From an uncultured Pelagibacteraceae bacterium (GTDB taxonomy: Bacteria; Pseudomonadota; Alphaproteobacteria; Pelagibacterales; Pelagibacteraceae), in assembly GCA_902595465.1 (NCBI GenBank), contig CACJQE010000001.1:89698-153697 (forward strand): a stretch of 64,000 nt of DNA, in the 5' to 3' direction. Below are positions 46,245-52,242 of the stretch, piece by piece. Each line of letters begins with the position of its first letter. Position 1 is the stretch's first letter. Below the pieces are notes generated by a model. It was given only the letters and a program-made list of their open reading frames with translations, searched no databases and was not told the origin of the DNA. The position numbers were made by a program, and so were the translations under genes.

Positions 46245-48836
46245 TTAATTGTAAATTTTATCTCTTACAAGCTTACTTAATAAACTATATCCAAGTTCGT
46301 TCATATGTAGTGGATCTTCATCGTAAAACTTATCATAACCTGCATTTATCATGGGTGTTGTAATATCAATATAATCCCACATTTTTAAATTGGTTAAGTG
46401 TTTTTTTATCTTTGAATTAGCATCTAAAATTGTTGTCATAAGATCTCTCCTAAAAGGACTAGGCTTAATAGATATAAAAAAACATTTCGCTCTTGGTAGT
46501 TTTTCTTCAACTTGATTAGAAAATAATAAAAATTCTTTTAACAATTCATCGCTATCCATTCCATAACCAATGTCATTATCTCCGGCATAAAAGAAAAGAC
46601 TAGATGGGTTTAAAGGAGCGACCAATCTATCAAAATATCTTCTACAAGAGACTAAAGTTGAACCACCAAAACCTAAATTATAAAGATTATTTATTGATAA
46701 ATCGTTTTTGGCATTATCCCACATTTTAAAAGTTGAACTACCATACAAAGCAACACTGTTATTTGTTTTTGTCTGTTGAAAAGAATTATGTTCCAATTCT
46801 CTCACATCTAATTCAAACTCTTCTTCAACTGGACTCACTAAATTTACATTAGTTTTCAAATTCTCTATTTTATCTATGTTGTCTTGAACATTTTTAGATA
46901 AATCAATAGCTTCTTCTACATAGGATCTAAATTTGGTTCTGTAATTATCTAAGAAGCTTTTCATTTCATCTTGATTTTCTGGATCTTTCACATGATCACT
47001 TATAGTTATTGGCTCCTTAATAACTGCTGAATATATTGTTTTAGAAACTGGATAATCAAAATTAGCAAGGGCAATTGGAATGAGTTTTGGTTTTGGACTA
47101 AGCTTAAAAGCAAGGTTAAATGCTCCTGCTTTAAATGGTCCTGGCGAAGTTATTGTTTTATTATCTTCTGTTTCTGATGTTCCTTCGGGGGCAATTACAA
47201 TCGGTTGTTTTTGATTAAATACTTTTTGAGCTTCATCAAAAAGCTTTTGTTTTCTCTCTTGCTTTTCCTTTTCACTTTCTTCCAACATATCAGACTCTGG
47301 GGTATGAACAAAAATATAATCTAAATTTTCATAATAATTATATCTCCAAAATTCTGTGTTCCGACTTGTTCTAACGATACGTTGACCTCCATCATTATAT
47401 TTTGGATATAATATTTTTGAACTGATGAAATGACTATCTATTGAAAATGAATGTCCATTTGCAAGTTGATTGTCATCTATAGCTGCTAAATGATTGTAAA
47501 AAAAAATATTTGTTGGTTCATCTGGTAAATTTTCCCAACCCTTTATTACATATTTAACATTATCAAAAGCTTTGGTGAAATTAGAATTGGTTAACTCTCT
47601 CAATTTTGTTTTATTAGAATTGTTAGAAGAATTCGATACTCTGTTATAAATTATATTTAATTGATTATGAAAACGGGACTCTCTTTCTAAATTATTTAAG
47701 GTATCTTTTATCAGACTGGATAACGATTTTTCTATCTCATTTCCTTTAATAATTAATTCATAAACAACATCAAATGCCATTGCATACGTATGAGGACTCT
47801 TCAATAAATGTGGTATAGTATATAACTTAGAACTAGCAGGTATTCTTGCTGTATTATCTTTTAATAATAAATTAACAAATTCTAATTCATTTTCTGCAGA
47901 ATACTTGGTTAAACCTGTAGCGCTTTGCTGGAAACGACCTAGTTGCCATAATTGTCTCCTGAAAATTTTTATAGCCATTTGAGGATCTGAAATTGTTAAA
48001 TTTTCAAGTGCCTCATTAGAAATATGAAGAACTTTTGTGTCTCTAGTAGACTTTATCGTATAAGGATTAAAGAAATCTCCTTTTCCAGATGATAAAGTTA
48101 AAGCGATTCCAGCTCTAGTTAAAGTTCTGAAATTTCGTCTTATTTTTCCATTAATGAAATTATGAAATAAACCATCAACTTTACCACTCAATAATATCTT
48201 TAAACCTTTAGAAACATCTCCTTCTTTAACTATATATTGATTTGATGAATACATCTTTATATTACCTAATTTAATAAATTTTTCTAAGTCATCATCAGTA
48301 AGAGTTGAAAAAAAAGTAGCCGATTTAATTCTTTGTATATTTGTTATACTTTTTTCTGATGGGGTACCTGGAGAAATTTGTATTTCATCATCTTTATACA
48401 AAGTGTTTAAATTTCTTGAAGAGACAAGCAGTTGGAAAGAAAAAAACGAAATGGCTGAGTATAATGTAGATATAAGTTTACTATTTTTTTGTTGTAAATC
48501 TATTAAATCATCTAGTTTTATCGAGATATATTCTGTTCCACCTTCAATAAATATTTCACCCATAAATCTATTGGGTTGATTAAGTCCAGATATACCTAAT
48601 GGTGTTGCAGGCTTTGTTATTTTTGCAAAGGTTATAGATTTTGTTTCAAAATACTTGGTAAATGTAGCTTTGCCTTTAATTAAAAAATAAATGTTTTCTG
48701 AAATTTGATGCTGCTTTGCTAAAACTTCATCACTTTCAGCTATTATATGTTCTGATATTCCATCTATTAATCCAAAGGATTCTTTTAGATTTCCTAAATC
48801 AAAGCCATTTTGCTCAAATAATTCAGATAATTTCAT
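46245..48836 (-). CDS. multidomain protein: two cNMP-binding-like domains, PlsC-like acyltransferase, SGNH hydrolase
   Basis: 863 aa. Residues about 25-150 and 165-305 look like two cyclic-nucleotide-binding (CAP effector) beta barrels; the second has QYIVKEGDVSKGLKILLSGKV (partly quoted). A helical linker (310-430) follows. The acyltransferase domain has the H-x4-D motif at His449-Asp454 (YNHLAAIDD) and the PEGT motif at 550-553 (IAPEGTSET), as in glycerolipid acyltransferases. Residues 693-863 form an SGNH/GDSL hydrolase with all four blocks: YGSST (Ser701), GFGGST, AGDND (Asn754) and DPLHMN (Asp841, His844). No signal peptide or obvious membrane helix, so probably cytoplasmic or membrane-peripheral. 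A lipid acyl-transfer/deacylation enzyme gated by a nucleotide is inference. First gene of a three-gene unit. Confidence 0.85.
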   Translation of the reverse strand: MKLSELFEQNGFDLGNLKESFGLIDGISEHIIAESDEVLAKQHQISENIYFLIKGKATFTKYFETKSITFAKITKPATPLGISGLNQPNRFMGEIFIEGGTEYISIKLDDLIDLQQKNSKLISTLYSAISFFSFQLLVSSRNLNTLYKDDEIQISPGTPSEKSITNIQRIKSATFFSTLTDDDLEKFIKLGNIKMYSSNQYIVKEGDVSKGLKILLSGKVDGLFHNFINGKIRRNFRTLTRAGIALTLSSGKGDFFNPYTIKSTRDTKVLHISNEALENLTISDPQMAIKIFRRQLWQLGRFQQSATGLTKYSAENELEFVNLLLKDNTARIPASSKLYTIPHLLKSPHTYAMAFDVVYELIIKGNEIEKSLSSLIKDTLNNLERESRFHNQLNIIYNRVSNSSNNSNKTKLRELTNSNFTKAFDNVKYVIKGWENLPDEPTNIFFYNHLAAIDDNQLANGHSFSIDSHFISSKILYPKYNDGGQRIVRTSRNTEFWRYNYYENLDYIFVHTPESDMLEESEKEKQERKQKLFDEAQKVFNQKQPIVIAPEGTSETEDNKTITSPGPFKAGAFNLAFKLSPKPKLIPIALANFDYPVSKTIYSAVIKEPITISDHVKDPENQDEMKSFLDNYRTKFRSYVEEAIDLSKNVQDNIDKIENLKTNVNLVSPVEEEFELDVRELEHNSFQQTKTNNSVALYGSSTFKMWDNAKNDLSINNLYNLGFGGSTLVSCRRYFDRLVAPLNPSSLFFYAGDNDIGYGMDSDELLKEFLLFSNQVEEKLPRAKCFFISIKPSPFRRDLMTTILDANSKIKKHLTNLKMWDYIDITTPMINAGYDKFYDEDPLHMNELGYSLLSKLVRDKIYN

Positions 48837-50554: not shown

Positions 50555-50746
50555 TTAAAGACTAATTTTGAAAGTTCTTGAAGTTTTGTCGTCTGATACT
50601 TTTAAAATTTTAAATTTTGAAGTTTTTTCAAGCTTTTGACCTTTGTTTGTAACAAAAGATTTCATTTTCTTAACTTCACCTTCAGGCATTTTTCTTGTGT
50701 ACTTCAGTGTATGTTTTTTTGATCCAATAACAAATATCGTCTTCAT
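50555..50746 (-). CDS. small basic protein, 63 aa
   Basis: 63 aa, rich in Lys and Thr, predicted beta-rich ([20 protein letters not shown], then [21 protein letters not shown], partly quoted). No cysteine, no membrane segment. It begins with ATG and lies 8 bases upstream of the photolyase gene, so it is probably co-transcribed and perhaps translationally linked. No family recognised. Confidence 0.65.
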
Positions 50747-50853
50747 GAAATTTTAATTACAAATATATTTATTATTTGTCTCTGTGACATAAGTTTCATT
50801 TAAGAGTTTGGGAATATTTAAATTATTTTGATATCGAGAATCTACTAAAGAGC

Positions 50854-50914
50854 TAGGTTGTATTCAAATAATATATTTATAAAAAATAGAAATAAATTTG
50901 TTGAATACAACCTA
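50854..50914. repeat. 14-base inverted repeat
   Basis: TAGGTTGTATTCAA at 50854-50867 and its exact reverse complement at 50901-50914, separated by 33 AT-rich bases. In RNA it would form a 14-pair stem. It could be a regulator site, an RNA stem, or part of a terminator, but no U-tract follows on either strand. Confidence 0.85.
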
Positions 50915-50948
50915 CCTAAAACTTATTTTATAAGTGAAGGAGGTGAAA

Positions 50949-50978
50949 ATGCTTAGAATAACGCCACCTGACACTTAG
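50949..50978 (+). CDS. candidate 9-aa leader peptide
   Basis: ATG at 50949, nine codons (MLRITPPDT), stop TAG at 50976. It is preceded by AAGGAGGTGA, an exact match to the complement of the 16S 3' end, at ideal spacing; this is far stronger than most ribosome-binding sites in the window. The AGGTG of the site (50941-50945) can pair with CACCT inside the ORF (50965-50969), and the same CACC can pair with GGTG at 50981-50984. Such mutually exclusive pairings are typical of leader control. No plus-strand gene follows before 55199, so what it would control is unclear. Confidence 0.35.
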   Translation: MLRITPPDT

Positions 50979-51053
50979 CTGGTGAGATATCACATATTAA
51001 AAATAACACAAACTAAATCCATTTGATGGATTTGGCCAAAATGGCATAAAAAT

Positions 51054-51091
51054 GGGGAGCTCTTTTGGTAATAACCAATTGAGCTGACCCC
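51054..51091. terminator. bidirectional hairpin terminator
   Basis: A long stem: GGGG with CCCC (51054-51057 and 51088-51091), AGCTC with GAGCT, then TTGGT with ACCAA around loop AATA, with a 2-base bulge and small internal loop. On the minus strand it is followed by ATTTTTATG, just after the aminotransferase stop, so it should end that transcript. On the plus strand it is followed by ATTTAATAATTTTT and would end any RNA from the region at 50.9 kb. Confidence 0.8.
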
Positions 51092-51093
51092 AT

Positions 51094-52242
51094 TTAATAA
51101 TTTTTAGACATAAAATCTTTAATTCTCTTAGCACCTTCAATTATATCTTTTGTGCTTCTGGCATATGAGAATCGAATAGTAGAATTTCCTCTTTTTTGAT
51201 CAAAATCAATTCCTGGTGTTATAGCAACATTTGCTTCATCTAAAACTTTTTTACAAAAAGCTAAGCTATCATTTGAATATTCAGATATATCAACATAAAT
51301 GTAAAAAGCACCATCTGGTGGTGAAAACTTTTTTAATCCTGCCTTCGGTAATTCTTCCAAAAGTATCTCTCTATTTTTTTTATATACTTCAACATTTGAT
51401 TGTAACTCTTCGGTTGCATCCAATGAAGCAAGAGCTGTAACTTGACTTGCGTGTGGAGGACAAACAAACAAATTTTGTGAAAGCCTTTCTACTTGTCTAA
51501 CATGATCATCTGGTACAACCATCCACCCTATTCTCCAACCGGTCATAGAAAAGTATTTTGAGAAAGAATTAATTACATAGCAATTATCTGTAATCTCTAG
51601 AGCTGAAGTCGGATTATTTTCATATTGAATTCCGTGATAAATTTCATCACTAATAAAGCTAACATTATTCTCATTTGCAGTATTAATTAAATTTTCTAAA
51701 GCTTGTTTATCCAACATTGACCCAGTTGGATTTGCAGGTGATGCAACAAGAATTCCATTTAAATTATTATTTGTAATATCATCTGGTACTGGTTGAAATC
51801 TATTTTGAAGTTTGGTTTGAATATCTACGGTTTCCAAACTTAATGATTTTAGTATTTGTCTATAGCTAGGATAACTTGGAGATCCAATTCCAACTCTATC
51901 TCCACTATCAAACAGTGCAGAAAAGGATAATATAAAAGCTCCAGAAGAGCCTGTTGTAACTACTATTCTATTTGGATTAAGATCTAAATTGTACCAATCT
52001 CCATATAACTTTGAAATTTTTGATCTTAGAGCTGGTAGACCAAGTGATACTGTATAGCCTAGATTGTTTTTATTTATCTCATTGGTAATATAGTCTTTTG
52101 CAATCTTAGGTGCTGGTGTTCCTGGCTGCCCTACCTCCATATGAATTATATCTTTTCCTTTTTCCTCTGCAATTCTTGCTGATTCCATTACATCCATTAC
52201 TATAAATGGATCAACATCTGATCTTTTTGATTTTTTCATCAT
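51094..52242 (-). CDS. class I/II PLP-dependent aminotransferase
   Basis: 382 aa. The PLP lysine lies in SFSKYFSMTGWRIGW (about 228-242), with the upstream substrate and cofactor motifs PANPTGSMLD and SDEIYHG. The N-terminal GQPGTPAPK element fits the aspartate/aromatic aminotransferase fold I group. Substrate not determined. The start overlaps the upstream 68-aa gene by 4 bases. A strong hairpin follows its stop. It lies downstream of an FAH-family gene and xsc on the same strand; linkage to sulfonate metabolism (for example making a sulfo-ketoacid) is possible but unproven. Confidence 0.9.
   Translation of the reverse strand: MMKKSKRSDVDPFIVMDVMESARIAEEKGKDIIHMEVGQPGTPAPKIAKDYITNEINKNNLGYTVSLGLPALRSKISKLYGDWYNLDLNPNRIVVTTGSSGAFILSFSALFDSGDRVGIGSPSYPSYRQILKSLSLETVDIQTKLQNRFQPVPDDITNNNLNGILVASPANPTGSMLDKQALENLINTANENNVSFISDEIYHGIQYENNPTSALEITDNCYVINSFSKYFSMTGWRIGWMVVPDDHVRQVERLSQNLFVCPPHASQVTALASLDATEELQSNVEVYKKNREILLEELPKAGLKKFSPPDGAFYIYVDISEYSNDSLAFCKKVLDEANVAITPGIDFDQKRGNSTIRFSYARSTKDIIEGAKRIKDFMSKNY

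Follow-up and report, generated by a model that had tools for sequence, protein, structure and literature searches.

The window, a 64 kb stretch of genome from an uncultured member of the Pelagibacteraceae, contains a gap of 347 nt. Upstream of it lie a 63-aa ORF and a photolyase gene, both divergent on the minus strand, and its downstream side is bounded by a class I/II aminotransferase gene that is convergent and ends at 51094. Within this gap lies the only exact occurrence of the Shine-Dalgarno sequence AAGGAGGTGA in the window, and two bases past it an ATG opens nine sense codons (MLRITPPDT) that end at a TAG stop (50976-50978). The original prediction had drawn attention to this site on the grounds that few genes in the window have a strong ribosome-binding site, and this holds, with GGAGG found ahead of a plausible start in only 1 of 59 long ORFs. 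The features of the locus are collected in table 1. Two other ORFs of the window deserve mention: the 63-aa ORF itself (50555-50746), which has no Pfam match and occupies the same place in about 33 relatives, and an 863-aa ORF on the minus strand (46245-48836) that is an unusual fusion of cyclic-nucleotide-binding, acyltransferase and GDSL-like lipase domains.

Table 1. Features of the element, in window coordinates.
Feature	Position	Strand	Basis
TACTAA, -10-like element of putative promoter	50843..50848	+	column counts, 65 copies
Near-invariant AGGTTGTATTCAA, probable RNA 5' end, in the 5' part	50855..50913	+	alignment
Hairpin H1, AT-rich, arms about 50855-50867 / 50901-50913, within the 5' part	50855..50913	+	alignment
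Shine-Dalgarno AAGGAGGTGA	50937..50946	+	unique in window; can also pair with Pro-Pro codons
Micro-ORF MLRITPPDT-stop, conserved C-terminus (P)P-D/E-T/I-stop	50949..50978	+	comparison of copies
CCACCT, Pro-Pro codons, partner of the Shine-Dalgarno in the fold	50964..50969	+	folding and alignment
GGTG 3' of the stop, proposed competitor	50981..50984	+	clade-specific, not conserved
Hairpin H3, AAATCC / GGATTT core	51014..51034	+	covariation
Hairpin H3b, GCC / GGC	51035..51045	+	covariation
Terminal hairpin H4, GGGG-A-GCTCTTTTGG / CCAATTGAGC-TGA-CCCC	51050..51095	+	helices 4 and 5 of the alignment

Extent and distribution of the element

Alignment of homologues revealed that the 49 bases marked originally are the middle of an element of about 240 nt (about 50855-51095), a conserved unit roughly five times longer than the coordinates first given. 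A DNA search of 60 relatives returned 16 clear homologues besides the window. We then used a covariance model (R1), built on the region from the Shine-Dalgarno to the last hairpin, which recovered the element from 91 of the 201 genus genomes, never in more than one clear copy each, and from 21 of the 29 genus genomes that are at least 90% complete. Lower-scoring R1 matches came from further genera of the family; with an improved model (R2) those genera were recovered at E-values of 1e-13 to 1e-20 and genus g12 was added. The element is known from four genera of Pelagibacteraceae, highly diverged ones included. Across 241 genomes of the class, R2 matches were confined to this family, and the sampled alphaproteobacterial genomes outside it gave no match to the element. 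A pattern scan of named genomes returned Pelagibacteraceae or Pelagibacterales records only, among the matches listed. Three near-threshold matches (E 0.005-0.007) were set aside: the one in G338 (genus g6) is without the motif and was treated as chance, and no motif was recovered for G331 (g6) or G252 (g8). A viral origin was rejected, an exact-pattern scan of viral contigs having given zero matches.

Lack of conservation of the Shine-Dalgarno and tiny ORF among relatives had been named in advance as what would refute the feature, and both turned out to be conserved. The covariance-model search of SAR11 genomes that had been proposed as a check recovered the element with its peptide kept and its hairpins covarying, as described below. 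Presence is nevertheless patchy, as roughly half of the family's near-complete genomes have no detectable copy. Two copies, L107 (genome G136) and L108 (genome G024), have decayed to Shine-Dalgarno-like and LPDT-like remnants without the ATG or the 5' part; both stand in the same neighbourhood as intact copies, after a 285-aa dehydrogenase-like gene. Patchy presence and the two decayed copies indicate that the element is dispensable and, together with a subclade that carries LPDT, they argue against an essential role and against a need for di-proline in the strict sense.

Conservation of the micro-ORF

Among the 91 genus loci, 86 encode PPDT followed by the stop, three encode LPDT followed by the stop and two are degraded, and wherever a genus locus carries the motif, GGAGG is followed by an ATG in frame. 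In 164 distinct copies the ORF spans 6-11 residues and ends in (P)P-D/E-T/I-stop, with GGAGG located 0-11 nt 5' of the ATG. The N-terminal part is free in sequence and in length, with 1-6 residues between Met and Pro-Pro: genome G012, which is probably strain HIMB5, encodes MQNKTPPDT, while genera g15, g7 and g12 encode MSPPET, MSKLTPPDT and MSPPEI, respectively. The distant genera with MSPPET and MSPPEI retain Pro-Pro followed by an acidic residue. The di-proline (PPX) motif is present as PPD or PPE in 160 of the 164 distinct cores, and LPDT in the other four.

The last five codons of the 164 cores read CC[AG] CC[TA] GA[CTA] AC[TA] T(AG/AA/GA). Minor letters fall at third positions 123 times, compared with 13 times at first and second positions combined; the pattern used to extract the 164 cores required this general codon shape, whereas the 91 model hits are free of such a requirement. 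Synonymous freedom, combined with replacement of Asp by Glu and of Thr by Ile, points to selection on the peptide. Comparison of the copies thus shows the micro-ORF to be, as judged from its codons, under selection at the peptide level, and the ATG at Shine-Dalgarno distance along with the third-position variation indicates that it is probably translated. In an LPDT subclade (L103, L104, L105 and L249), GUCAGG and CCUGAC match perfectly over 6 bp across the flank of the Shine-Dalgarno.

Conserved RNA structure

The 246 nt of plus strand from 50850 to 51095 have a folding energy of -75.7 kcal/mol, while dinucleotide-shuffled versions give -40.0 +/- 3.9 (z -9.2). We measured covariation on an alignment of 50 sequences. 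The proposed structure had 91.9% of cells paired, with double changes at 15 of 31 pairs; every control gave less, and with the partner strand shifted by 1-3 columns pairing fell to 37-57%. In hairpin H3, 98.3% of cells are paired and both sides are changed in some sequence at five of the six pairs. H3b is paired in 91.9% and shows a C-G to G-C swap in six rows, while the distant genera have GAAA-loop versions of it on different stems. Terminal hairpin H4 runs as far as the aminotransferase gene's stop codon; helix 5 of H4 is paired in 93.6% of cells with both-side changes at seven of ten pairs, and the inner part of the hairpin covaries. By this comparison the three downstream hairpins are shown to exist as RNA, as far as compensatory change can reveal it. 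For the upstream hairpin H1, the left arm was found in 65 of 72 representatives and the full right arm in 30, and it is missing from the two most distant genera. We rejected a general hairpin directly after the stop, which is present in g7 and g15 and gives a mean z of -0.4 over the 72 representatives.

The original prediction also held that the Shine-Dalgarno pairs with CACCT inside the ORF and that this CACC can instead pair with GGTG past the stop, as mutually exclusive alternatives. The first pairing is part of the predicted fold and is kept in relatives (92.3% of cells paired), but it hardly covaries, with a compensatory change in one alignment row only; this is expected if GGAGG and CCN-CCN are each fixed for another reason. 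In the LPDT subclade the pairing is shifted to the GUCAGG:CCUGAC helix at the same place, hinting that pairing at the Shine-Dalgarno/Pro-codon site may itself be favoured. The CACC:GGTG competitor can form in the window genome but is paired in 58.7% of cells against 59.1% when shuffled and has zero covarying pairs. A conserved switch between the two pairings is therefore not borne out.

Putative promoter, RNA ends and gene context

The -10-like element has the form TAnnAA, and its opening T and A (bases one and two) are invariant in 65 copies. AGGTTGTATTCAA is preceded by TAnnAA in 65 of 72 representatives, and the seven without it include five g15 sequences. We infer that TAnnAA and AGGTTGTATTCAA represent the promoter and the RNA 5' end, which would give a candidate plus-strand RNA of about 240 nt with a putative start near 50855 at A(GGUUGUAUUCAA). 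A -35 matching the -10-like element was looked for and none was found; likewise, a search for a canonical U-tract terminator found none, the U-tracts past H4 being irregular on both strands. Separately, a genome-wide operator of GGTTGTATTCAA was rejected, as one-mismatch matches in the window's own genome were fewer than those of the reversed control.

The genes downstream of the element group into about 20 clusters, among them one that is a shadow ORF over folD and one that is a distant ORF. About 17 of 18 unrelated contexts have a convergent downstream gene, which mostly abuts the element. The sole exception is a distant genome of 1,284,727 bases, in which a co-directional gene lies at least 78 nt past the element. 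Upstream neighbours vary between genomes likewise. This variety on both sides indicates that the element is its own unit, and the comparison of loci shows it to be independent of neighbouring genes, to judge from their arrangement. The commonest upstream neighbour (92 loci, e.g. L010) is a divergent 59-aa membrane-protein-like ORF, MKYV..STIIIYAINIVAGFAGADY. At two loci, a TPP-riboswitch-like sequence that scores under the Rfam gathering score lies about 0.6 kb from the element (L009:2288-2375 and L007:2243-2330).

Previous records of the element

Rfam 15 holds no family that matches the element above its gathering threshold; weak matches to snoR12, mir-90, HgcG and RsmY were far under gathering scores and were rejected. 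In genome G250, which we take to be P. ubique HTCC1062, the covariance search places the element at 762685-762861, between an SMR-transporter-like gene (qacH) and a hypothetical gene. Table 1 of Meyer 2009 lists for HTCC1062 an intergenic region at 762678-763012 beside qacH, with no RNA assigned and with 76 BLAST hits, under the cut-off of 200 used there (PMC2704228). The element is inside these coordinates and its neighbours agree with those of that region. For strain HIMB5, Stav 2019 describes at least three sORFs along with two structured (HRC) motifs that are unexplained, and the element may already be catalogued in the tables of that study (PMC6429828).

Discussion

The element is apparently a real, uncharacterised RNA rather than the leader of a gene next to it. 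The reading we prefer, with confidence just short of even, is a free-standing plus-strand RNA gene of roughly 240 nt whose micro-ORF pauses a ribosome to set the fate of the RNA. From 5' to 3' it would consist of the putative promoter, the strong Shine-Dalgarno, the ORF of 6-11 residues and three conserved hairpins, the last of which closes the element. Transcribed as a separate RNA, it would load a ribosome onto its 5' part through the strong Shine-Dalgarno. The ribosome would then pause once Pro-Pro occupies the P site, with Asp or Glu incoming, and EF-P would relieve this pause; alternatively, the ribosome may be held by its slow release from the stop codon that follows closely. Its occupancy would also open the Shine-Dalgarno:Pro-codon pairing and may set the fold, the lifetime or the cutting of the RNA, or its action in trans on a target. 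Translation capacity, meaning EF-P activity and ribosome supply, would in this way be reported via the RNA and not via a downstream gene.

What is known of di-proline pausing is consistent with this mechanism. Ribosome profiling of E. coli places PPD exclusively among the di-proline motifs that pause, and lists pauses at PPE (PMC4140641); stalling has also been reported for Asp following di-proline (PMC4176338). EF-P is encoded in all 13 near-complete relatives tested. A narrower form of the same idea, a 'pause RNA' whose ORF serves solely to park a ribosome at Pro-Pro-Asp/Glu, with EF-P activity or ribosome supply read out in trans, seems to us doubtful though worth keeping in view. If true, the ORF would be among the shortest conserved coding sequences known, at six codons plus stop (MSPPET, MSPPEI). 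The LPDT subclade, with its single proline, counts against a pause that strictly needs two prolines and suggests that RNA pairing may matter too.

Two other explanations appear unlikely, to the same degree. The first takes the peptide as the product: a stable, structured mRNA would yield a minimal bioactive peptide, x-PP-D/E-T/I. Selection on the C-terminal amino acids would suit such a product, as would the mildness of replacing D by E and T by I, but its N-terminal part varies freely in sequence and in length (1-6 residues), and six or seven residues are too short to exit the ribosome tunnel during synthesis; the covariation of the hairpins would need a separate reason. The second is a base-pairing sRNA with the 5' AGGUUGUAUUCAA as its seed, in which translation of the micro-ORF would only modulate seed exposure or stability. 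Across 65 of 72 representatives these 12 nt hardly vary, even where the hairpin partner is lost, but the two most distant genera lack them while retaining both ORF and hairpins, and they might instead serve as an initially transcribed sequence or a DNA-binding one. One-mismatch matches to the stretch in the window's own genome are also not commoner than for the reversed control.

Somewhat poorer still is the case for a ribosome-site decoy, which we consider improbable. A strong Shine-Dalgarno would here titrate 30S subunits, the Pro codons being kept as a CCNCC:GGAGG off-switch. Of the suggestion of a small RNA with a decoy ribosome site in the original prediction, the small RNA with a ribosome site agrees closely with our comparison of copies, and the decoy is just one rival. 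An unusually perfect site in a window with few of them, its high level of pairing with CCNCC and the 6-bp helix at the same place in the subclade that lacks one Pro codon are all compatible with a decoy. Pairing, however, leaves unexplained why Asp/Glu, Thr/Ile and the stop are fixed while third positions are free, and an RNA from a single copy would require very high abundance to titrate ribosomes.

It is very unlikely that there is no RNA gene and that convergent genes use the element as a conserved terminator acting in both directions, or as a 3' structure. Such a role would explain why it nearly always abuts a convergent 3' end and why H4 ends at the stop codon, but the one element stands beside about 18 unrelated genes, its Shine-Dalgarno, ORF and promoter-like -10 indicate the plus strand, and the U-tracts after H4 lack regularity on either strand. 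Finally, the cis-acting leader peptide or attenuator with ribosome-sensing control of the downstream gene, as first put forward, has next to no likelihood left: a short ORF, strong Shine-Dalgarno, pausing motif and alternative pairings are what one would expect of it, but it is contradicted by gene order, with its only co-directional gene in a single distant genome, and the competitor pairing is not conserved.

The free-standing RNA with a pausing micro-ORF would be of wider interest. SAR11 bacteria are among the most abundant cells on Earth and have extremely compacted genomes with few known regulators; the median intergenic spacer of P. ubique is 3 nt (PMC5069961). An RNA gene of 240 nt that is kept across genera in such compact genomes is likely useful. 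A conserved ORF of 6-11 codons also bears on the minimum coding length that selection can hold, and sensing translation by means of a pausing peptide that has no cis-controlled gene would be out of the ordinary.

Comparison with known systems

TnaC, SecM, MifM and ErmCL are ribosome-arrest leader peptides that control a gene in cis. Like them, the element has a short ORF, a likely pausing C-terminus and alternative RNA pairings; the likely pausing C-terminus adjoins the stop codon. Unlike them, it has no downstream gene to control in nearly all contexts. Salmonella mgtQ, a translation-aborting sORF between mgtC and mgtB, resembles it in being a tiny ORF with acidic residues and a proline codon; mgtQ controls mgtB in cis and its proline codon acts through base pairing (PMC8092293). 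A tmRNA was rejected, since ARAGORN and Rfam find no tRNA-like part or tag ORF here, and the P. ubique tmRNA is at a different locus, by thyX (PMC2704228).

By analogy, the element would work most like a dual-function sRNA with an arrest-peptide ORF, a class for which a demonstrated target is required. SgrS/SgrT and Spot 42/SpfP are dual-function small RNAs. These and VcdRP share with the element a stand-alone sRNA that carries a short ORF. The VcdP peptide of VcdRP has 29 residues (PMC8672173), whereas the peptide of the element has 6-11 and is conserved at the C-terminus only.
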